The position numbers and the translations under genes are program-made. Shown here in pieces: positions 9,460 to 24,966 of a DNA stretch of 25,011 nucleotides. This DNA is from a virus, in the IMG/VR virus record IMGVR_UViG_3300046006_000649, positions 1-25,011 of that record; one strand, 5' to 3'. How positions within the stretch are numbered: the stretch's first letter is position 1; every line of letters starts with the position of its first letter. Below the pieces are notes generated by a model. That model did no database searches. It saw nothing but the letters and a program-made list of their open reading frames with translations, and was not told the DNA's origin.

Positions 9460-9993
9460 ATGATTAAGAATTCTATTACTGAAATTAAAGATTGGCCTAC
9501 AGTAGGTGTAAACTTCAAAGACCTTAGCACTGTACTGACTAAGCCCGGCGATTTCCGTTGGGCCCTAGATCGTCTCAAGATGTTTATGTTGATTAATGAC
9601 GTAACTTGTATTGCGTCCCCTGATGCTCGTGGATTCATTTGGGGCGCACCTGTTGCTGCTGAACTTGAATTGCCATTTCATATGATTCGTAAGCCGGGCA
9701 AGTTGCCGCCACCGATTATCAGTCAGTCATATGAATATGAATATGATAGCGGAACACTAGAAATTAAAGGTAATACTGACATTGGTGAAGGTACTAAGGT
9801 TGGTATAATCGATGACGTTAATGCTACCGGCGGGACAGCATTAGCAACTATTCAACTACTAAGCAGAATTGGCGTAAAACCGGAGGATATTTTTTATGCA
9901 AGCGTTATTGACCTCACGTATCTCAACGGGAGCAACAAGATTCGTGAAACAGGTGCAACAGTTTTATCACTTGTATCATATGAATCTGATTAA
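9460..9993 (+). CDS. apt: adenine phosphoribosyltransferase
   Basis: 177 residues, the usual APRT length. APRT makes AMP from adenine and PRPP. The PRPP-binding loop VGIIDDVNATGGTA (114-127) is of the type I phosphoribosyltransferase form. SPDARGFIWGAPVAAEL (53-69), RKPGKLP (77-83) and SYEYEYDSGTLEI (90-102) match the APRT dimer and adenine-side segments. AAGGG lies 7 nt before the ATG. It lies close to a nucleosidase gene (10180) that would release adenine, with one small membrane gene between, which suggests a joint salvage role. Confidence 0.88.
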   Translation: MIKNSITEIKDWPTVGVNFKDLSTVLTKPGDFRWALDRLKMFMLINDVTCIASPDARGFIWGAPVAAELELPFHMIRKPGKLPPPIISQSYEYEYDSGTLEIKGNTDIGEGTKVGIIDDVNATGGTALATIQLLSRIGVKPEDIFYASVIDLTYLNGSNKIRETGATVLSLVSYESD

Positions 9994-10183
9994 ATGGTTA
10001 GGTACAACAGGCGTAATTGTAGCAACAATTCTTAGAGCCTTTGGTTACCATACAGAAGATATGATTGTTGGGTTTATGGGAACTGCATTGTGGGCGTATG
10101 CTTCTTATGTAGACCGTGACCGCGCACTATTAACTTGTAATATCTTTATTCTTACTGTGTTATTATATGGAATTTTTACATGA
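9980..10183 (+). CDS. small membrane protein (67 aa)
   Basis: ATG 9980 is preferred over upstream starts that lie deep in apt. The protein MNLIKWLGTTGVIVATILRA... has two or three hydrophobic helices (about residues 8-20, 28-42 and 49-66) separated by a YVDRDRA loop. It resembles single-repeat small transporter-like membrane proteins in pattern only. It overlaps apt by 14 nt and the nucleosidase gene by ATGA. Function unknown. Confidence 0.62.
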   Translation: MNLIKWLGTTGVIVATILRAFGYHTEDMIVGFMGTALWAYASYVDRDRALLTCNIFILTVLLYGIFT

Positions 10184-10716
10184 ATGATATTATTTTATTA
10201 GCAATGCCCGAGGAAGCTCCCTCATTTATAGGCAAGAGTAACGTATTCTATACTGGTGTTGGCAAAGTAAATGCAGCTATTGTTGCTGCTACACTAATTG
10301 AACGGTATAAGCCCGCTCGGGTATTCAACTTCGGTACTGCTGGCGGTATAACTGCAACTCACGGTGGCATCTACAAGTGTACTACATTTAATCAACGTGA
10401 CGTTATCCTAGGTGGGGTGATTGTTGGACCACAAGCAGAAGCGTTACATGCACCTATTATCATCGGCGATGATGGATGGTCACTGAGTACAGGTGACAAC
10501 TTTGTAACTGACACCTATAATATCAATGCTGATCTAGTTGACATGGAAGCATATGCTATTGCTAAAGCGTGTCAAGTAGCAAATGTAGAATTTATCTGCC
10601 ACAAGTATATCAGCGATATGGCTAACGATGAAGCGCCTGACCATTTTGTTGAGCATGTCCATAAGGGCGAAGACTACTACATTGAGATTCTGGAAGAATA
10701 CGGAGTAGAATTATGA
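10180..10716 (+). CDS. MTA/SAH nucleosidase-like protein (PNP/UDP family)
   Basis: 178 residues, shorter than the roughly 230 of E. coli MTAN. Matches in order: AMPEEA with Glu12 (E. coli AMEEEV, Glu12), TGVGKVNAA (25-33), FNFGTAGG (50-57), STGDNFV (103-109), VDMEAYAIAKAC with Glu123 (E. coli VEMEATAIA, Glu174), and YISDMAND with the general-acid Asp146 (E. coli Asp197). The catalytic set therefore looks intact, and the shortening is in the middle. Expected reaction: release of adenine from methylthioadenosine or S-adenosylhomocysteine; a different purine nucleoside is possible. Joined by ATGA overlaps to both neighbours. Confidence 0.8.
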   Translation: MNDIILLAMPEEAPSFIGKSNVFYTGVGKVNAAIVAATLIERYKPARVFNFGTAGGITATHGGIYKCTTFNQRDVILGGVIVGPQAEALHAPIIIGDDGWSLSTGDNFVTDTYNINADLVDMEAYAIAKACQVANVEFICHKYISDMANDEAPDHFVEHVHKGEDYYIEILEEYGVEL

Positions 10717-11219
10717 ATCTTGAATTACTACCTGAAAATCATGCTCAGTTACTTGAAGTCTCAGAAGAATGGGACTTTAGAATTGACGGTAGCCCCGAAG
10801 AACTTGTTAGAGCTATGTCAAAGTTCATGGCTGACAACGGCGGAGTTGGTCTTGCTGCCCCGCAGTTAGGAATTAAGAAGCGCATCTTTATCATGGGTAA
10901 CTTCACTAAGCTTGTTGCGTGTATCAATCCTAAGATTGTCTCACTCTCGGAAGACCGCGGTATCGATTTAGAAGGCTGCTTGAGCTTCCCGGACTTGTTT
11001 ATGAAGGTTAAGCGACCTACGAGCGCAGTAGTACAGTACAACACTGCATCGGGTGAATTAGTTGAGCGTGAATTGACTGGTCTTGAGTGCAGAGTATTCC
11101 TACACGAGTATGACCACTTAATCGGAGTCACGTTTGACCAGCGAGTAGGTAATTTGTCATTTAAGATGGCCAAAGATAAGCGCAAAAAAGAACTAAAGAA
11201 ATTGAGTAGAAAGGATTAA
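10713..11219 (+). CDS. def: peptide deformylase
   Basis: 168 residues with all three deformylase motifs: GVGLAAPQLG (44-53), EGCLSFP (87-93, metal-ligand Cys89) and HEYDHL (131-136, ligands His131/His135, catalytic Glu132). It removes the formyl group from the N-terminal fMet of new proteins. Phage-borne deformylases are known from marine T4-like cyanophages, where they are thought to help synthesis of proteins made in bulk during infection. A lysine-rich C-terminus (KDKRKKELKKLSRK) follows the core. Start overlaps the nucleosidase stop (ATGA). Confidence 0.93.
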   Translation: MNLELLPENHAQLLEVSEEWDFRIDGSPEELVRAMSKFMADNGGVGLAAPQLGIKKRIFIMGNFTKLVACINPKIVSLSEDRGIDLEGCLSFPDLFMKVKRPTSAVVQYNTASGELVERELTGLECRVFLHEYDHLIGVTFDQRVGNLSFKMAKDKRKKELKKLSRKD

Positions 11220-15230: not shown

Positions 15231-15246
15231 TTTTCAGACTTAAGAA

Positions 15247-15253
15247 TAAATAC
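15247..15253 (+). promoter_or_regulatory. T4-type late promoter motif
   Basis: TAAATAC (context AGAATAAATACA) in the gap after the helicase gene, 24 nt before the ATG of the 82-residue gene. AGGA lies at 15261-15264. It marks the switch from replication genes to late genes. Confidence 0.72.
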
Positions 15254-15277: not shown

Positions 15278-15526
15278 ATGCAAAAAAAGACTCGTAGCCT
15301 TTTAGAAGAACTCCAATCGTTCGGGGATACCCGTGATATTAATAATATCATTGAAAACCGTGCGTCCAACATTATTACTAGTGCTATCAATTTGATTGAA
15401 TTGATGCAAAAACACTATCCTTCCGATAAGGCAGAACTGCTTGAGAAGAAATTGTTGAGCGCAATTAAGGGTAAAGATCAAGCAAGATTTGCAAAGTCCT
15501 TAAGGAAGAAACATGAAAATAAGTGA
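15278..15526 (+). CDS. small helical protein, late (82 aa)
   Basis: Almost entirely helical and charged: KTRSLLEELQSF, ASNIITSAINLIELMQKHY, then a basic end AKSLRKKHENK. No catalytic motif. It is the first gene after a late promoter and overlaps the next gene by 14 nt. Short helical basic proteins at this position could be head-core or virion-internal proteins, but I have no direct evidence. Confidence 0.68.
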   Translation: MQKKTRSLLEELQSFGDTRDINNIIENRASNIITSAINLIELMQKHYPSDKAELLEKKLLSAIKGKDQARFAKSLRKKHENK

Positions 15527-16877
15527 ATTCAAAAAGCTTGAAGAACAAATAGAAAAGCAGAAATTAGATGAGCTTAGTCTAAGCAGTTTTATCGGAGATT
15601 TCGGATCAGCCGCAGTAAAAAGTGCGTTTTCTGGTAAAGGGCTCAAGCAACAGATGATTCAAGACATGTTCTTGAAAGATTTTTACGATGACGCTTACAC
15701 TTCACTTGATAATGCAATTAAAGGTCGAGTAGTAAACCCTAAAGTAAAAGGAACTCTTTCACCCACAGCCGTTGAAAAGAATCCTGCTGATGTCAAGCCC
15801 GAACCGGGAGAACCGGGAGCTAAACCTACTCCCACAGCTCCAACTGCTTCAGGAACACCCGCAGTTCCAGGAACACCTTCGGCAGCTCCAGCTACCCCCG
15901 GAGCACCCGCAGCCAAGACAAGTGCTACAGCACCCGCAGTTGCAGCTAATAAGTCACAGCAGCAAACAACGCAGAATATCAATAACTACGTTAAGCAGGC
16001 TGCACAATCAATTAATCAAGCTACTGATAAAAATCAAAAAATTGCACTTACAAAAGAACTTGTAAACTCTATGGCTGACCGTCAAGGAACGCCCGAATGG
16101 AATAACGCTGTTAAAGGCGTTGAAGGTATTATTAAACGAGCAGGAACTGATCCTGCTTTTGCCAATCAAGCGGTTAATAATCTTCGTTCAGGTAAAACTA
16201 TGTCAGAAGCTTGGCGAATCTATTTCGCTAACAAGTTGGTAGAAGCAGTAGGACTTACTTGGAAAGACTTAGGTCTTTCTGTACTGAAAGAGGGTAAGAA
16301 CTACTATATTGCTGAAACTCGCTACGTTAAACTAAACCAATTATTCGAAAGCATTATGGAAGTTACGACGGGCGGTGTTGGTTTCGGAGCTACACCTGCT
16401 GGAACTACTGCAACAGTCGGTAAAGCAGGGTCAACTCCTGCCCCACAAAACATCAATCTTCCGCCTAATGCTACTCTAAATACTCCTACAGTTCCTGCAA
16501 CTCAACAAGCGCAATCACGCGGCGGACCGCAAAGCGTTGGTCAGTATATACTAGCTTGGTTTAATCAGTATATGAATGGTGTAGACTGGAAAGCTAGTGA
16601 AGATACGGTTTTGCCTCTGATTCAGGCAATCGAAGATTCTTATCCTTCAGGATATAAGAATGCAATCAAAACACTAGCAAGAACTGCATTTGCGATTTCT
16701 AAAGCTTCACCTTCATTACCTGCTGGCATCAAAGATGAAACTGATAAACTTGATAAACCTGATGAAGAAGAACCAAAATCCGGTAGTGTTTGGGACGGGG
16801 TATTTAAAAAGCCCGGTGCAGATGCAGAAAATCCCGATGCTAAAAAAACTACAACAGAGTCAAGACGCAGAAGATGA
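15513..16877 (+). CDS. late protein with Pro/Ala/Thr-rich linker (454 aa)
   Basis: Three parts are visible: an N-terminal helical segment (1-75), a low-complexity Pro-Ala-Thr-Gly linker (about 92-150, with repeated APxxPG-type units), and a helical middle (about 155-290: NINNYVKQAAQSINQATDK, ELVNSMADRQGTPEWNNAV, VKLNQLFESIMEV). A second Gly/Thr/Pro linker and another globular stretch (340-400, VGQYILAWFNQYMNGVDW) follow, with a basic end ESRRRR. This suggests a virion-associated scaffold or linker protein; no enzyme motif. ATGA overlap with the nucleotidyltransferase-like gene suggests joint expression. Confidence 0.68.
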   Translation: MKISEFKKLEEQIEKQKLDELSLSSFIGDFGSAAVKSAFSGKGLKQQMIQDMFLKDFYDDAYTSLDNAIKGRVVNPKVKGTLSPTAVEKNPADVKPEPGEPGAKPTPTAPTASGTPAVPGTPSAAPATPGAPAAKTSATAPAVAANKSQQQTTQNINNYVKQAAQSINQATDKNQKIALTKELVNSMADRQGTPEWNNAVKGVEGIIKRAGTDPAFANQAVNNLRSGKTMSEAWRIYFANKLVEAVGLTWKDLGLSVLKEGKNYYIAETRYVKLNQLFESIMEVTTGGVGFGATPAGTTATVGKAGSTPAPQNINLPPNATLNTPTVPATQQAQSRGGPQSVGQYILAWFNQYMNGVDWKASEDTVLPLIQAIEDSYPSGYKNAIKTLARTAFAISKASPSLPAGIKDETDKLDKPDEEEPKSGSVWDGVFKKPGADAENPDAKKTTTESRRRR

Positions 16878-17740
16878 GCATCTTAACTGAAGGTGGGGCA
16901 ATGCCCGGTGTTGGTGCAATCCATATCGATGAGATTGAACCCACGTTGGATAGTCTAGAAAAGATTTTAGGCATTGACCTCAAGAACAACACTTTAGGTA
17001 GCGTAGGCAAGAAAGAATTTTCTGGCGATATCGATGTTGCTCTTGAAATAGACCCAGAGGATATTCCTGCATTCGTAGAGAAATTACAGAATATTCCAGA
17101 AGTGCTAGACCTTGCAAAAAGTTCAGTAATCATGACTAAGGTTAAGATTGCTAACTATGATCCAAACAAACAAGTACAAGGTAAACCAAGAACAGGGTAT
17201 GTTCAATTAGACTTCATGCCCGGCGAACCGGGCTGGCTCAAGACTTACTATCACGCACCCCAGGAGAAAGATAGCAAGTACAAGGGAGTGTATAGAAATC
17301 TTTTACTAGCATCAATTGTTGCCCGCGTAAATCGTAAGGACTCAGAACAAAAACTACCCGATGGCAGAGCTATGCAATCAGAACGATATATGTGGAGCCC
17401 AACTGACGGGCTGGTAAAAGTATTAAGAACTCCTGAACCTAACAAGAAGGGCGATGGCTACACTAAGAAAAATAATAACAAGATTATCGACGGTCCATAT
17501 AAAGACCCAAATGAAATTGCCAAAGTGTTGAAACTTGGTACTGCTGATAGTTTATATTCATATGAAACATTACGTAAGGCAATGGACGAAAATTATCCAT
17601 CTGAATTAGTAAACCTTATGCTTAAAGATTTCTCAGAAAATCCTACAGTACGTGACATCGGTGTTCCTACTGATATCAAGCTTAGCGAGAGCGTAGGTAC
17701 ATCTGACTGGTTCAGAACATTGCTGGACATCGTAAAATGA
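16874..17740 (+). CDS. nucleotidyltransferase-fold protein
   Basis: 288 residues. LGSVGKKEFSGDIDVALEI (41-59) fits the G-S-x(n)-G-D-x-D signature of the polymerase-beta nucleotidyltransferase superfamily (Gly42-Ser43, Asp52, Asp54). A third carboxylate, Asp113 in GYVQLDFM, comes at a sensible distance, so the metal-binding triad appears intact. The C-terminal half (MWSPTDGLVKVL and later helices) is unassigned. The substrate is unknown: members transfer NMP to RNA, proteins or small molecules. It is coupled by ATGA to genes on both sides, including a ligase-like gene, which suggests the two act together. Confidence 0.68.
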   Translation: MSILTEGGAMPGVGAIHIDEIEPTLDSLEKILGIDLKNNTLGSVGKKEFSGDIDVALEIDPEDIPAFVEKLQNIPEVLDLAKSSVIMTKVKIANYDPNKQVQGKPRTGYVQLDFMPGEPGWLKTYYHAPQEKDSKYKGVYRNLLLASIVARVNRKDSEQKLPDGRAMQSERYMWSPTDGLVKVLRTPEPNKKGDGYTKKNNNKIIDGPYKDPNEIAKVLKLGTADSLYSYETLRKAMDENYPSELVNLMLKDFSENPTVRDIGVPTDIKLSESVGTSDWFRTLLDIVK

Positions 17741-18825
17741 GAATAGTTGAACTACTAAACGAATCACGGTTGCTTGAAGCAGATGCTAGAACTCCCCATC
17801 CTGAGGATTCAGTACTCAGCGGAGTGTCCTCTGCTCGTGATGCTGTTGATTCAATGTATCATGTAATTGATAATCCAGAAACACTCACTATCAAGTGGGA
17901 CGGTTTCCCAGCTCTTATCTTTGGATACAATGACAAAGGACAATTCACTGTATCAGACAAATATATGTTTGATAAAGGTACTGAGTACTTAGGAACAAGC
18001 CCTAAGTTTTGGCAAGAGTATGATGCTAGTAGAGGCAAGAGTCGCCCAGATTTGTACGGTAGACTCAATTCTATTTGGAATGGATTGAAAGACGCGGTAG
18101 GCGCTAACAAAGGCTTCTTTTGGGGAGACTTGATGTGGGGCGAACAACTAAACCCGGTCGACGGCAAGTTCGTATTCAAGCCCAATACTGTAACTTATGC
18201 AGTTCCTGTAAAGAGTGAGCTAGGTAATATCATTGCTGGAACCAGCGGAGGTGTTGCAGTTCATCAGTATTTTGCTGATATTAGTTCACCTCCCGTGCCA
18301 TGGAACGGCAAAGGTCTACAGAGTAACAGTCAGGTTGCTATTCTCACTCCGAATATGGGCATTGATTTTGCATTAGAAGCTCCTAAGAATGAAGTTTCGA
18401 ATGTCAATCAAGCACTTGCTAAGAATGGTAAACTGGATGACTTCTTGAATGGCATGGATGGTGTGGCAAGAAACGCTCTAATGAAATACTTAGGACACAC
18501 AGCAACTAGACAAACTAACTTGCCACTAGAGCAATGGCTACAAAACAATGTCAGTGGTAAGCAATATCGATTCTTGGTCGGGGAAAACGACGGTTATCTT
18601 TTCCAAAACAAGGAAGCATTAGATAATCTTATTGAATTGTACTTCGCTATCGCTGAACTTAAAAATAGTCTTTCCGATCAACTTGAACAGCAGGTTAAAG
18701 GACTAGAACAATCAATCAATGATAGACCGGGCGGCGAAGGATTTGTCTTCAATACTCCTAAGGGACTAGTCAAGCTAGTCAATCGCGGTGGGTTTAGTGC
18801 CGCCCACTTTGGTAAGAAAAAGTAA
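17737..18825 (+). CDS. KxDG ligase-like protein (covalent nucleotidyltransferase fold, DUF6267-type)
   Basis: 362 residues. Motif I TIKWDGFPALI gives K-x-D-G with candidate nucleotidylated Lys53. A motif III-like GFFWGDLMWG lies at 126-135. Motif IV EGFVF is at 334-338 and motif V LVKLVNR at 344-350, close to the C-terminus. This order is that of ATP-dependent DNA and RNA ligases and capping enzymes, but motif IV lies unusually far from motif III and no extra OB or C-terminal domain follows. From memory it corresponds to the phage family DUF6267, whose function is not established. Coupled to the nucleotidyltransferase-fold gene by ATGA. Confidence 0.68.
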   Translation: MRIVELLNESRLLEADARTPHPEDSVLSGVSSARDAVDSMYHVIDNPETLTIKWDGFPALIFGYNDKGQFTVSDKYMFDKGTEYLGTSPKFWQEYDASRGKSRPDLYGRLNSIWNGLKDAVGANKGFFWGDLMWGEQLNPVDGKFVFKPNTVTYAVPVKSELGNIIAGTSGGVAVHQYFADISSPPVPWNGKGLQSNSQVAILTPNMGIDFALEAPKNEVSNVNQALAKNGKLDDFLNGMDGVARNALMKYLGHTATRQTNLPLEQWLQNNVSGKQYRFLVGENDGYLFQNKEALDNLIELYFAIAELKNSLSDQLEQQVKGLEQSINDRPGGEGFVFNTPKGLVKLVNRGGFSAAHFGKKK

Positions 18826-18854
18826 CCCAAAACCGAGTTTTTTTCTGTCCGGCA

Positions 18855-18861
18855 TAAATAC
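18855..18861 (+). promoter_or_regulatory. T4-type late promoter motif
   Basis: TAAATAC (context GGCATAAATACTT). By T4 geometry transcription would start at about 18866, immediately before the UUCG hairpin at 18867-18880. The controlled gene starts at 18902. Confidence 0.75.
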
Positions 18862-20306: not shown

Positions 20307-21026
20307 ATGAAACTCACTGATTTAGATAAAAATAATGTTGCAGCAAAGGCACTTAAAGAAAGCTTTGCAGTTGACTTTGACATTTCAGGTCTAGACAGAC
20401 CAAAGACTTTAACAATGTTAAAGAAAGTCAAAGGGCTTATCGCTGAAACTAGACAATCACCTACTCAGCATCGTTCGGAAACTAACCCGACCTATATGAA
20501 GATGTTGTTTATGGAACAGGCACTGTCTGCTCATCTTAAGGTTGCTAAGACTCCTCGCATCGTTTTTGAAAACGAAGAAGTAGATAAGTCACAGGTAATT
20601 CTTGCTGCTCAAGACATGATTGATTCTGTACAAAAAATGTATGAAGATGTTAATGATATGCTTGTCAAAGAACTTCCAGCACTCACTGATTCAATTCAGA
20701 GTGAAATCGGTGTTAATGAAAGTGATGCATTCAACACTGCTGCTACTGAGGCACTCAATACATTAAACACTGCACTACAAGCAGCACAGACTGGTCTCAG
20801 AGGCGCTCTAGGCGGTCTAACAGGACAAGCTGGCGCAGGATTCGATGCTGGCGCAGAAATGCCAGCTGGAGATGAAATGCCAGTCGGAGATGAAGAAGTA
20901 GACCTCAACGTAGATATTGATGCTGAAATGCCAGCAGAAGAACCTGGCGTAGAACTTCCTCCTATTCCAGATATGGATGATGAAGAAGACCTCCCAACTG
21001 GCGGTGCAGGCCGAGCAAAGCGATAA
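20307..21026 (+). CDS. helical protein with acidic Pro/Met-rich tail, scaffold-like
   Basis: 239 residues in two parts. Residues 1-165 are helical (LKKVKGLIAETRQ, YMKMLFMEQALSAHLKVA, ILAAQDMIDSVQKMYEDV). The tail from about 170 is Gly/Ala-rich and then very acidic (repeats of AEMPAGDEMPVG type, then VDIDAEMPAEEPG), ending GRAKR. Long helices plus an acidic low-complexity tail are typical of phage head scaffolding or core proteins, but this is inference from composition. It is driven by its own late promoter. Confidence 0.7.
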   Translation: MKLTDLDKNNVAAKALKESFAVDFDISGLDRPKTLTMLKKVKGLIAETRQSPTQHRSETNPTYMKMLFMEQALSAHLKVAKTPRIVFENEEVDKSQVILAAQDMIDSVQKMYEDVNDMLVKELPALTDSIQSEIGVNESDAFNTAATEALNTLNTALQAAQTGLRGALGGLTGQAGAGFDAGAEMPAGDEMPVGDEEVDLNVDIDAEMPAEEPGVELPPIPDMDDEEDLPTGGAGRAKR

Positions 21027-22121: not shown

Positions 22122-22151
22122 GTGTAATTAACGGACAAAGATTACACTTAT
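22118..22151 (+). promoter_or_regulatory. 11-bp inverted repeat covering the tail-fibre start codon
   Basis: ATAAGTGTAAT (22118-22128) and ATTACACTTAT (22141-22151) are perfect inverted repeats around a 12-nt loop TAACGGACAAAG. The right arm includes the A and T of the ATG at 22150. In read-through RNA the start codon would be paired; in RNA starting at the late promoter the left arm is mostly missing. Confidence 0.7.
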
Positions 22152-24966
22152 GGCAATTTTACAGATTTCTAAAATTCAACAACGTTCGGGTAATTTAGTA
22201 GACTTACCACAACTGGACGATGCAGAGTTTGGTTGGGCGACTGATGCCAAACGACTTTTCATTGGTAAATCTACCCCTAACGAGAACATTGAAGTTCTTA
22301 CTTCATACTCGCAGATTAATTTTAGTCAAATTAACGGTTCAGTTGGCAATTTAAATATCAGCAATGTCACTTTGGTTGACGGTCAAGTACTAGCCTATGA
22401 TGGCAGTGAGTGGGTCAATAAGGGCGGGGATGCAGGTGGATTAATAACATTGGGCGATGTTTCTAATGTTAAGATCGACGGCGGCGCAATTGGATATGTT
22501 CTTGAAACTGATGGAGTAGGTAATCTATCTTGGACACCTAAATCCAGTATTACTTCGTTTTTTGAAAACGTCACCAAAGCTGATCCAGCAGTAGTAACTA
22601 CTACTCAGGATAACTTTTTCACTCAGGGTGCATCAATCACTGTAACAAATGTTACTGGAATGACGCAACTTAATGGTAATGTATATTATGTAGATGTTCT
22701 CACTTCTAATACTTTTGCACTTTATCATGATTCTGGCTTAGCAAATACAGTAGACTCTACTGGTTATGGTACTTTCCCCTATGCTACAGTTTCGGCAACC
22801 GACACTTTAACAGATCAAATTACAGTATCCGATGCAACACCTTTTACTGTCAATGACCCTGTTGTATTTACCGGTGATTTAGGCAACAGTACAATTGTTG
22901 TTGGTCAAACATACTACGTTAAGACTAAAGACACATCAGCCCCAAATACTTGGATTACTATTTCAACGATTGCTGGTGGCAATACCTTTGATCCAGGTAC
23001 AGAAGCAAGTCCGACTGGCGCGGCAGTGTATGTTCCGGGCGGTCGCGCCGTATCATTAGTATCAGGTGGAACATCTTCACTTGCAGCCGCAGGTACGCCT
23101 ACTCAAATTCAATATAATGATACCAATCTCTTGCAGGGCAATGCAGATTTTACATACAACAATTCAACAAAATTACTAACGCTAAATGGCAACGCTAATG
23201 TTGGCAATTTAAATGCAACTGGTGTATCAACTGCTACCCGATTTATATCTAATATAGCTAACGGAACTCCTCCGCTACAAGTAACATCTGTCACCCGAGT
23301 AGCTAACTTAAGCGTAGCATACTCTAACGTTTCAGATTTCGGTGTAGTAACTACGCAAACAACAGGTACATTCTATCCTGTTATGGTAAGTGCTAACACT
23401 AGTGCAAACTATGCACTAGCATCTAACGCTAATATTTCATTCAACGCAGCAACCGGAAATCTTTCAGTAACTCTTTTGAATGCTTCTAGCAATGCGAACG
23501 TTGGTAACTTAGGAACTGCTGGATTAATCGTTGCAACTGGTAATGTTACTGGTGGTAATTTGGTAACAGGCGGCGCATTGAGTGTAACAGGTAATGCGAA
23601 CGTCGGTAACTTAGGCACAGCCAGAGTTATTGCTACTGGAAATATTAGCGGTACGCAGTTGATTAGCAACATTGCAACCGGAACCGCACCGCTGGTCGTT
23701 ACATCAACTACTACTGTTGCTAACCTTGCTGCTGCAACAGCCACTACTGCTGGCACCGTGACAACAGCAGCACAACCCAATATCACTAGTGTTGGTACAC
23801 TAACTTCATTAGCAGTTACAGGTAATATTAGTGCAGGTAACGTAAGTGCTACAACATTCACCGGTGCACTAAGCGGCGCGGCGACAAGTGCAACTACTGC
23901 TGGTACAGTAACAACTGCGGCTCAGCCAAATATCACATCAGTTGGTACATTAACCGGGTTAACAATTTCTACTGCTACTGGGCGATTAGGATTCGGTACA
24001 GATAGCGGAGGAGCCCTATCAATGGGGCTAGTAGATGGAAACTCATCTAGTCCTTATATTGATTTCAACACAAGCAATACCGCAGTAGATTTTAATGTTA
24101 GATTGGCAGCAACCGGTCCTTCAGCAGGCGTCGGTGCCGGCAATTTGTATGCCAATGCTGCTATAGTTGCAATTGGCAATGCACTTACGGTAGGAACAAC
24201 TGCTAATATAACTGGTAATGTAACTGCGGGTAATGTAAGTGCAACAACATTTACAGGCGCATTGACTGGAGCAGCAAGTACAGCCGGTACTGTTACTACA
24301 GCGGCACAGCCTAATATTACATCAACTGGCACATTAACATCACTGGCAGTAACAGGTAACATTAGTGCAGGTAATGTAAGTGCAACAACATTTACGGGTG
24401 CATTGACCGGAGCTGCAACTACTGCTGGTACTGTAACAACTGCGGCGCAGCCAAATATCACATCAGTTGGTACATTAACATCATTAGGTGTAAGTGGAGC
24501 GTTAACTACTACGCAAATTACAGCAGGCGCAAACACTACAGCAGGTAACATAACCGGCAACTGGACATTAACAACAGGTTCAAGTTTAACTGCTACTTAC
24601 GCTGACCTTGCAGAATACTACGAAGCTGATGTAAAATATCTGCCTGGTACGGTGTTGATGTTCGGCGGAGAGAAAGAAGTTACCCTCGCTGATGACGGCA
24701 CAAATAAAGTTGCAGGTGTAGTTTCTACGAACCCAGCATATGTTATGAACTCTACATGCCCCGGTCTATTGACCGCAGTTGCGCTACAAGGTCGTGTACC
24801 ATGTAAAGTTCGTGGTAAAATTAGTAAAGGCGACATGCTCATTTCAGGTGGCAACGGATTTGCAAGACCAAATCAGTTCCCTTCTATGGGTACAGTAATA
24901 GGTAAAGCACTGCAAGACTTTGATGGTTATGAAGGCGTCATTGAAGTTGCAGTTGGAAGACTATAA
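22150..24966 (+). CDS. tail fibre / receptor-binding-type virion protein
   Basis: 938 residues. The N-terminus ISKIQQRSGNLVDLPQLDDA, followed by EFGWATDAKRLFIG (residues 6-39), is the short attachment module found at the start of many phage fibres (Mtd-N-like). The middle is Gly/Asn/Thr/Ser/Val-rich beta-repeat (units such as NITSVGTLTSLAVTGNISAG), typical of trimeric fibres. The last roughly 125 residues (DLAEYYEADVKYLPGTVLMF, VAGVVSTNPAYVM, GRVPCKVRGKISKGD, VIGKALQDF) form a separate conserved-looking end domain that may trimerise or bind receptor. Late promoter and start-codon hairpin upstream. Confidence 0.85.
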   Translation: MAILQISKIQQRSGNLVDLPQLDDAEFGWATDAKRLFIGKSTPNENIEVLTSYSQINFSQINGSVGNLNISNVTLVDGQVLAYDGSEWVNKGGDAGGLITLGDVSNVKIDGGAIGYVLETDGVGNLSWTPKSSITSFFENVTKADPAVVTTTQDNFFTQGASITVTNVTGMTQLNGNVYYVDVLTSNTFALYHDSGLANTVDSTGYGTFPYATVSATDTLTDQITVSDATPFTVNDPVVFTGDLGNSTIVVGQTYYVKTKDTSAPNTWITISTIAGGNTFDPGTEASPTGAAVYVPGGRAVSLVSGGTSSLAAAGTPTQIQYNDTNLLQGNADFTYNNSTKLLTLNGNANVGNLNATGVSTATRFISNIANGTPPLQVTSVTRVANLSVAYSNVSDFGVVTTQTTGTFYPVMVSANTSANYALASNANISFNAATGNLSVTLLNASSNANVGNLGTAGLIVATGNVTGGNLVTGGALSVTGNANVGNLGTARVIATGNISGTQLISNIATGTAPLVVTSTTTVANLAAATATTAGTVTTAAQPNITSVGTLTSLAVTGNISAGNVSATTFTGALSGAATSATTAGTVTTAAQPNITSVGTLTGLTISTATGRLGFGTDSGGALSMGLVDGNSSSPYIDFNTSNTAVDFNVRLAATGPSAGVGAGNLYANAAIVAIGNALTVGTTANITGNVTAGNVSATTFTGALTGAASTAGTVTTAAQPNITSTGTLTSLAVTGNISAGNVSATTFTGALTGAATTAGTVTTAAQPNITSVGTLTSLGVSGALTTTQITAGANTTAGNITGNWTLTTGSSLTATYADLAEYYEADVKYLPGTVLMFGGEKEVTLADDGTNKVAGVVSTNPAYVMNSTCPGLLTAVALQGRVPCKVRGKISKGDMLISGGNGFARPNQFPSMGTVIGKALQDFDGYEGVIEVAVGRL
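23743..24498 (+). repeat. imperfect intragenic repeats in the tail fibre
   Basis: Four copies of a unit beginning AC(T/A)(A/G)C(T/C)GC(T/C)GG and encoding AGTVTTAAQPNITS(V/T)GTLT start near 23743, 23893, 24280 and 24418. Copies 1 and 3 continue into a shared SLAVTGNISAGNVSATTFTG segment, and a partial extra copy of that segment lies at about 24214-24270. Synonymous differences between copies show they are not brand new. They could support recombination that changes fibre length. Confidence 0.8.

Follow-up and report, generated by a model that had tools for sequence, protein, structure and literature searches.

A putative head-packaged nucleotidyltransferase and ligase-fold protein pair encoded among late genes of T4-like phages

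Two adjacent genes in the virus record IMGVR_UViG_3300046006_000649 (positions 1 to 25,011, the whole of which is referred to here as the window) encode NT, a predicted nucleotidyltransferase of the Pol-beta superfamily, and LIG, a protein with a predicted ligase-type fold. We somewhat favour a reading in which NT and LIG would form a two-enzyme module of T4-like phages that is packaged in the head, injected and repairs nucleic-acid ends. The parts of this reading differ in strength. Packaging of both proteins in the phage head is judged highly probable from their N-termini, injection into the host is argued by analogy, and nucleic-acid repair by the pair, with RNA favoured over DNA, is given about an even chance. 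The initial annotation of the locus described open reading frames (ORFs) at 15513-16877 (454 aa, here LNK), 16874-17740 (288 aa, NT) and 17737-18825 (362 aa, LIG), which are present as described; the ATGA overlap that it claimed for NT/LIG is seen (17737), and the LNK/NT junction (16874) has one too. The features of the pair are as follows, with a bar marking a predicted cut.

16874..17740, + strand: NT, Pol-beta-superfamily nucleotidyltransferase by AlphaFold2 (AF2) model and structural matches, 288 aa
16874..16891, + strand: NT propeptide MSILTE, with E6 the last residue before the predicted prohead-protease cut (LTE|GG); E6 in 44 of 47 aligned relatives
16997..17035, + strand: NT catalytic G42-S43 ... 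G51-D52-I-D54, invariant except that S43 is S or T
17210..17212, + strand: NT third catalytic Asp, D113 (VQLDFM), in 50 of 50 aligned relatives
17737..18825, + strand: LIG, DUF6267 protein, ligase-fold covalent nucleotidyltransferase by prediction, 362 aa (PF19782, E 5e-32)
17737..17778, + strand: LIG propeptide MRIVELLNE|SRLLE|, two tandem predicted cuts after E9 and E14; residues 1-17 disordered
17893..17904, + strand: LIG motif I, K53-W-D-G56, predicted lysyl-nucleotide site; K, D and G in 60 of 60
18124..18132, + strand: LIG motif III-like G130-D131-L132; D131 in 60 of 60
18736..18786, + strand: LIG motif IV, E334-GFVF (E334 in 60 of 61), and motif V, K346-LVNR (K346 in 61 of 61)

The N-termini of both proteins carry the evidence for packaging. 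They are disordered in the AF2 models (residues 1-7 of NT and 1-17 of LIG), and among relatives they vary in length, yet share a conserved end, L/I-x-E with G, A or S as the next residue. Cleavage by T4 gp21 falls after L/I-x-E, and ten N-terminal residues of IPIII are enough for head targeting (PMC9026906); T4 Alt is cut at ITE-6, with six residues removed (PMC5694885). In the T4 record, IPII and IPIII begin MKTYQEFIAE|A and Alt begins MELITE|L. Relatives of LIG start with MKTYTEYLVE|A, which matches the start of IPIII, or with MKTYREFLTE|A or MKRFVEYLAE|A, and relatives of NT start with MNLTE|GG, which resembles the start of Alt, or with MIRLYE|GG or MSILTE|GG. The L/I-x-E site was found in 32 of 39 distinct LIG N-termini and in 15 of 20 NT N-termini, against 6.1 and 2.2 expected from shuffles. 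Most replication genes and other late neighbours have the site in none or almost none of their members (DnaB 0/15, S145 0/16, S161 0/11, S113 0/8, S228 0/7), the exceptions being the virion proteins S82 and S239. In S82, [LI]xE occurs near the N-terminus in 7 of 13, but was not counted as a propeptide since it lies inside a conserved segment. LNK has a capsid-targeting-like start, MKISEF, and a clean protease site in just one of five. A virion structural protein elsewhere in the window (20307-21026, phrog_14154) bears MKLTDLDKNNVAAKALKE|S and is a further candidate prohead-protease substrate (8 of 14 relatives).

Relatives supply the protease and some virion evidence. An S77 prohead protease of the gp21/T4 type is encoded in three longer related contigs (G001, G002 and G005). 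The own major head protein of G001 (179 kb) begins MSKLLTE|SR, and the background of the L/I-x-E site in that contig is 17 of 195 genes, and these 17 include the complete run of four genes that begins with NT and ends with LIG; a polynucleotide-kinase-like P-loop protein of G001 likewise bears a head-targeting site, which fits end repair. A G005 protein beginning MKTFQQYLTE|S matches 'internal head protein', and ESI-MS/MS underlies the annotation of EST35_0231, the NT homologue of phage PA5oct, as a structural protein. Because capsid-targeting and prohead-protease sites are predicted at both N-termini, NT and LIG are best read as virion cargo, which would also account for their late, virion-type gene placement. 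The initial annotation had allowed RNA, DNA ends or a virion component as the target; of these, the N-terminal sites point to a place in the virion, and RNA is favoured over DNA as the probable substrate.

The assignment of NT to the Pol-beta superfamily is supported by its AF2 model (pLDDT 83), which, like that of LIG, was predicted from alignments of the window protein with relatives from viral contigs. The best match in VIA was TUT7 (Z 8.8; 88 aa, 2.1 A), with Pol lambda at Z 8.2 (181 aa, 4.2 A), and every row listed belongs to the Pol-beta superfamily. Foldseek gave 40 matches at E <= 0.001, those listed being Pol beta. G42, G51, D52, D54 and D113 are invariant and S43 is S or T across 49-50 aligned non-redundant relatives, so that the GS, DxD and third Asp first noticed in the sequence are kept, and the model resembles Pol-beta/TUT-type enzymes only, among the rows listed. 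By sequence, NT has no match in Pfam, PHROGs or NCBIfam. When 27 NT members were scanned, a single relevant family match appeared, Pfam Polbeta at E 0.12 in one member, and the RlaP family PF10127 matched 0 of 27 at E <= 1. Searches of PDB sequences with NT and LIG profiles returned chance matches only. Among 84,980 bacterial and archaeal genomes NT had three matches, and because all three are on contigs titled metagenome-assembled, no cellular NT family was found.

LIG matches DUF6267 (PF19782), a family without known function that has at least 593 relatives in viral contigs, at 112.1 bits against a curated cut-off of 27. The Pfam scan gave, besides DUF6267, one chance CNOT1 match and neither Rnl1 (PF09511) nor Rnl2 (PF09414). 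The KxDG ligase motif set proposed for LIG was found and is conserved: motifs III, IV and V follow motif I in order, with a long helical insert between III and IV and an atypical motif V. K53, D55, G56, K75, D131 and K309 are invariant in 60 aligned non-redundant relatives and K346 in 61, and Lys53 is the predicted site of lysyl-nucleotide formation. In VIA the AF2 model (pLDDT 88.5) was closest to NgrRnl (Z 8.5; 188 aa, 4.1 A), followed by TbREL1 (7.4), T4 Rnl1 (7.3), and Rnl2 and human LIG1 (both 7.1), and ligases make up 50 of the 50 rows listed; Foldseek against the PDB returned nothing at E <= 0.001. The modelled ligase nucleotidyltransferase fold of LIG is thus a safe assignment. Since the catalytic residues of both proteins are invariant across aligned relatives, the motifs are not chance. 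Loss of Lys53 or of the GS/DxD residues in homologues, or an unrelated fold, would have spoken against the initial annotation; these residues are kept and the predicted folds match. Alignment of the pair with small Rnl1, Rnl2 and RlaP sets by hhalign was uninformative and without power, as even Rnl1 against Rnl2 gave E 0.19.

The pairing of the two genes was followed in 80 DUF6267 loci collected with the LIG profile. Of these, 62 carry NT, in most cases immediately upstream of LIG, and several of the 18 loci without NT are cut by a contig end. In six loci (L163, L165, L172, L194, L199 and L206), NT and LIG are a single ORF of 610-625 codons, and in L207 and L212 the gene in the LNK position is fused to NT. 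In the jumbo phages PA5oct, Phosso and Atu_ph07, an NT homologue lies near a KxDG protein of another family; the PA5oct homologue aligns with NT at hhalign E 5e-23, and LIG aligns with the jumbo-phage KxDG proteins at E 0.0034 (0.075 with two sequences). Strict co-occurrence, a further expectation of the initial annotation, was rejected. On marine contigs L076-L099, NT follows a HIGH-type CTP_transf_like protein, with no DUF6267 on the contigs searched, and DUF6267 without NT occurs in cyanophages, a pelagiphage and Melnitz. The cyanophage DUF6267 adjoins or is fused with CTP_transf_like proteins: the S-PM2 protein (L109:5974-7746) carries a fused C-terminal CTP_transf_like domain, and P-HM1 (L131) has adjacent genes. 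The large marine protein directly upstream of NT (L076:3522-5948, similar in L077-L093), in the group without DUF6267, has an N-terminal HIGH-type nucleotidyltransferase (CTP_transf_like) and a head-targeting-like start, MNLKDILE|AESK. The DUF6267 protein L045:3977-7008 has an extra N-terminal domain that itself shows KVDG ... EGLVLN, and the gene upstream of it is a divergent NT starting MRAREFLIE|GG (phrog_19290).

NT and LIG probably share a transcription unit with two upstream genes, LNK and the small protein S82 (gene 15278-15526).

15246..15252, + strand: late-promoter-like core ATAAATA (AAGAATAAATACATTC), heading the S82-LNK-NT-LIG unit, 32 bases 5' of gene 15278
15278..15526, + strand: S82, small virion structural protein (phrog_11854 'virion structural protein', E 1e-15)
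15513..16877, + strand: LNK, linker-rich, 454 aa, N-terminus MKISEF..., capsid-targeting-sequence-like
18854..18860, + strand: next late-promoter-like core ATAAATA, preceding gene 18902

The late promoter claimed initially stood in part: the 25,011-nt window does not contain the exact T4 consensus TATAAATA, but has the core ATAAATA at 15246. This core precedes the counterpart of gene 15278 in 23 of 33 relatives, against 3.3 expected by shuffling. A unit of 15278-18825 is likely because the core at 15246 is kept in relatives and the next such motif is at 18854. S82 is a conserved neighbour, close to the NT-LIG pair in most relatives, and LNK has no family match above curated cut-off in Pfam, PHROGs or NCBIfam. 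Elsewhere in the window, a row of phosphoribosyltransferase, PNP/UDP-phosphorylase-type nucleosidase and peptide deformylase genes (9460-11219) resembles a nucleobase-salvage set, and a 938-aa late protein (22150-24966), with weak E1_FCCH and Peptidase_G2 (autoproteolytic) matches, is probably a fibre or tail protein.

Cargo-like starts were also seen in other genes near DUF6267 or NT. Arrays of ~250-aa proteins (phrog_12810/11975, unknown function) occur at L030:4482-6001, L108:6671-12505 and L114:2196-5912 (- strand); their YRG, S-T-S-like and E motifs suggest ADP-ribosyltransferases, their starts include MKMKELLE|A and MKWHQLTE|A, and two proteins of this type lie between NT and LIG in L030. 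A P-loop kinase (L114:5977-6636, L127:6733-7392; N-termini ITE|G and LKE|G), near DUF6267 in Pelagibacter phage HTVC008M, matches Zeta_toxin PF06414 (E 3e-13, L127) and the polynucleotide-kinase-like phrog_505. Genes before DUF6267 in HTVC008M and Melnitz (L127:3938-4996, L128:3872-4957, L129:4034-4951) start LSE|A and show a possible PD-(D/E)xK pattern (PKTD...SLK), unconfirmed by Pfam; their DLP_6 neighbour has a similar PKSD stretch without an LSE|A-type start. L037:3993-5998, between NT and LIG, holds a gene of protein-kinase-like type that starts VKVQDILSE|A, together with one that starts MKIRDIIIE|N and joins a GNAT to a second nucleotidyltransferase with GS...GDID.

In the sequence of events that we propose, NT and LIG would be synthesized late and brought by their capsid-targeting N-termini into the prohead core, where the T4-type prohead protease would trim both after L/I-x-E. 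The mature proteins would remain in the head and, by analogy with T4 internal proteins, enter the next host alongside the DNA. There, LIG may form a lysyl-nucleotide on Lys53, and NT may add the missing nucleotide or nucleotides before LIG seals the ends. The likeliest substrate would be RNA, for example tRNA cleaved by host defence nucleases, much as RlaP and RNA ligase are proposed to refill and seal cleaved tRNAs in phages (PMC7824862). The repair enzymes would in this way come with the virion rather than by synthesis after infection.

Several observations weigh against this proposal. The ligase Z scores of LIG are modest (8.5 and below), with RNA and DNA ligases near-equal in rank; the fold assignment is safe despite this because the list is consistent and the motifs are invariant. 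LIG stops ~12 residues past motif V and, unlike ATP-dependent DNA ligases and mRNA capping enzymes proper, has no OB domain after it, and motif V reads K-L-V-x-R, not K-x-K, so full ligation by LIG is not assured. NT-LIG pairing is not obligatory. The cyanophage DUF6267 lacks a propeptide, as do the jumbo-phage NT homologues, including the PA5oct protein detected in virions, and the KxDG protein of PA5oct is not annotated as structural. No protease and no capsid gene was identified in the 25-kb window record.

We favour RNA-end repair as the first-ranked activity, with DNA-end repair and protein modification next. Packaged modifiers of host proteins, acting by nucleotidylation or nucleic-acid attachment in a T4 Alt-like takeover, are an unlikely alternative to repair, although head-packaged ADP-ribosyltransferases are a known strategy (PMC9503650) and the pair of some relatives sits among injected-effector-like genes with the same site, namely possible ADP-ribosyltransferase-like genes, GNAT and HIGH-type nucleotidyltransferase genes; the ADP-ribosyltransferase-like neighbours fit host takeover. 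However, the lysyl-nucleotide of the ligase fold forms on the enzyme itself, as an intermediate, and co-occurrence of Pol-beta and ligase proteins is typical of RNA repair (PMC7824862). Also unlikely is a role for the packaged enzymes in repairing or protecting incoming phage DNA, through Pol-X-type gap filling and nick sealing as a minimal base-excision or end-joining kit. The alignment of NT to Pol lambda extends across palm and thumb, DNA ligase 1 scores less than 1.5 below the best RNA ligase, and a kinase-like protein with a head-targeting site is found in G001 and also near DUF6267 in HTVC008M; but ATP-dependent DNA ligases use the OB domain that LIG lacks, no helix-hairpin-helix or lyase domain was seen, and RNA ligases head the structural matches of LIG.

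That NT and LIG are ordinary intracellular RNA-repair enzymes of the RlaP/Rnl kind, expressed late by chance and with incidental L/I-x-E N-termini, is improbable. A similar enzyme combination is known in phages (PMC7824862), and no Rnl1, Rnl2 or RlaP was found in G001, G002 (both possibly incomplete) or PA5oct, so the pair could take that role there; yet the propeptide enrichment far exceeds that in shuffles and neighbours, and NT has no match to PF10127. Atu_ph07, moreover, has Rnl1, Rnl2 and RlaP elsewhere in its genome and Phosso has Rnl1 and Rnl2, each besides its NT-KxDG pair, and the cargo pair is therefore not simply Rnl1/Rnl2/RlaP renamed. Head structural or assembly proteins retaining a dead enzyme fold would suit the virion-type neighbourhood, but this is very improbable given catalytic residues of both families that are invariant over very divergent sequences.

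For DUF6267, a family common in phages, these results supply a predicted fold and a likely active site, as well as a partner enzyme and a probable place where it acts. More tentatively, and a little short of an even chance, many large T4-like phages may carry an end-repair kit in the virion that acts at DNA entry, before phage gene expression, with DUF6267 as a new minimal ligase family; in that same generalization the kit would be a Pol-beta transferase and a DUF6267 ligase, at times fused, or with kinase-like or HIGH-type nucleotidyltransferase partners. If the favoured reading of a packaged NT-LIG module is confirmed, the range of T4-style injected head proteins, until now inhibitors and ADP-ribosyltransferases, would extend to chemistry on nucleic-acid ends, and L/I-x-E near the N-terminus would offer a simple sequence rule to find more injected cargo beside DUF6267. 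Neither internal head proteins nor RNA-repair pairs of Pol-beta and ligase are new in themselves, and Nudix proteins, like ADP-ribosyltransferases, have been described as head-packaged (PMC9503650). In the literature searched, we found neither a head-packaged pair of Pol-beta and ligase proteins nor a mention of DUF6267 by name, and no paper that gave DUF6267 a ligase fold; the main text of a comparative paper on cyanophages contains no discussion of T4-GC 71.

Among known systems, RlaP with an ATP-grasp RNA ligase (Rnl1/Rnl2), in jumbo phages and T4, is likewise a phage-encoded Pol-beta transferase with a KxDG ligase, predicted to restore lost nucleotides and then seal cleaved RNA (PMC7824862). 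NT is linked, and sometimes fused, to a ligase-fold protein with putative ligase activity. In contrast to that system, NT lacks a PF10127 match and LIG an Rnl1/Rnl2 Pfam match, Atu_ph07 has both sets, and the NT-LIG genes belong to a late virion unit and encode putative head-targeting propeptides. LIG shares the nucleotidyltransferase fold and motifs I, III, IV and part of V with NgrRnl, T. brucei REL1 and T4 Rnl1/Rnl2, but differs from them in the insert between III and IV, in motif V and in having no OB or C-terminal domain. LIG is a member of the same family as cyanophage T4-GC 71 (DUF6267) and shares with it a conserved position after a gp41-type helicase; the cyanophage version differs in having no propeptide and, in place of NT, a HIGH-type cytidylyltransferase-like partner (fused in S-PM2). 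T4 IPI-III and Alt have, as is predicted for NT and LIG, a short N-terminal capsid-targeting sequence that ends in L/I-x-E, a gp21-type cut and variable cargo; in T4 that cargo is a restriction inhibitor or an ADP-ribosyltransferase, whereas here it would be a nucleotidyltransferase and a ligase-fold enzyme.

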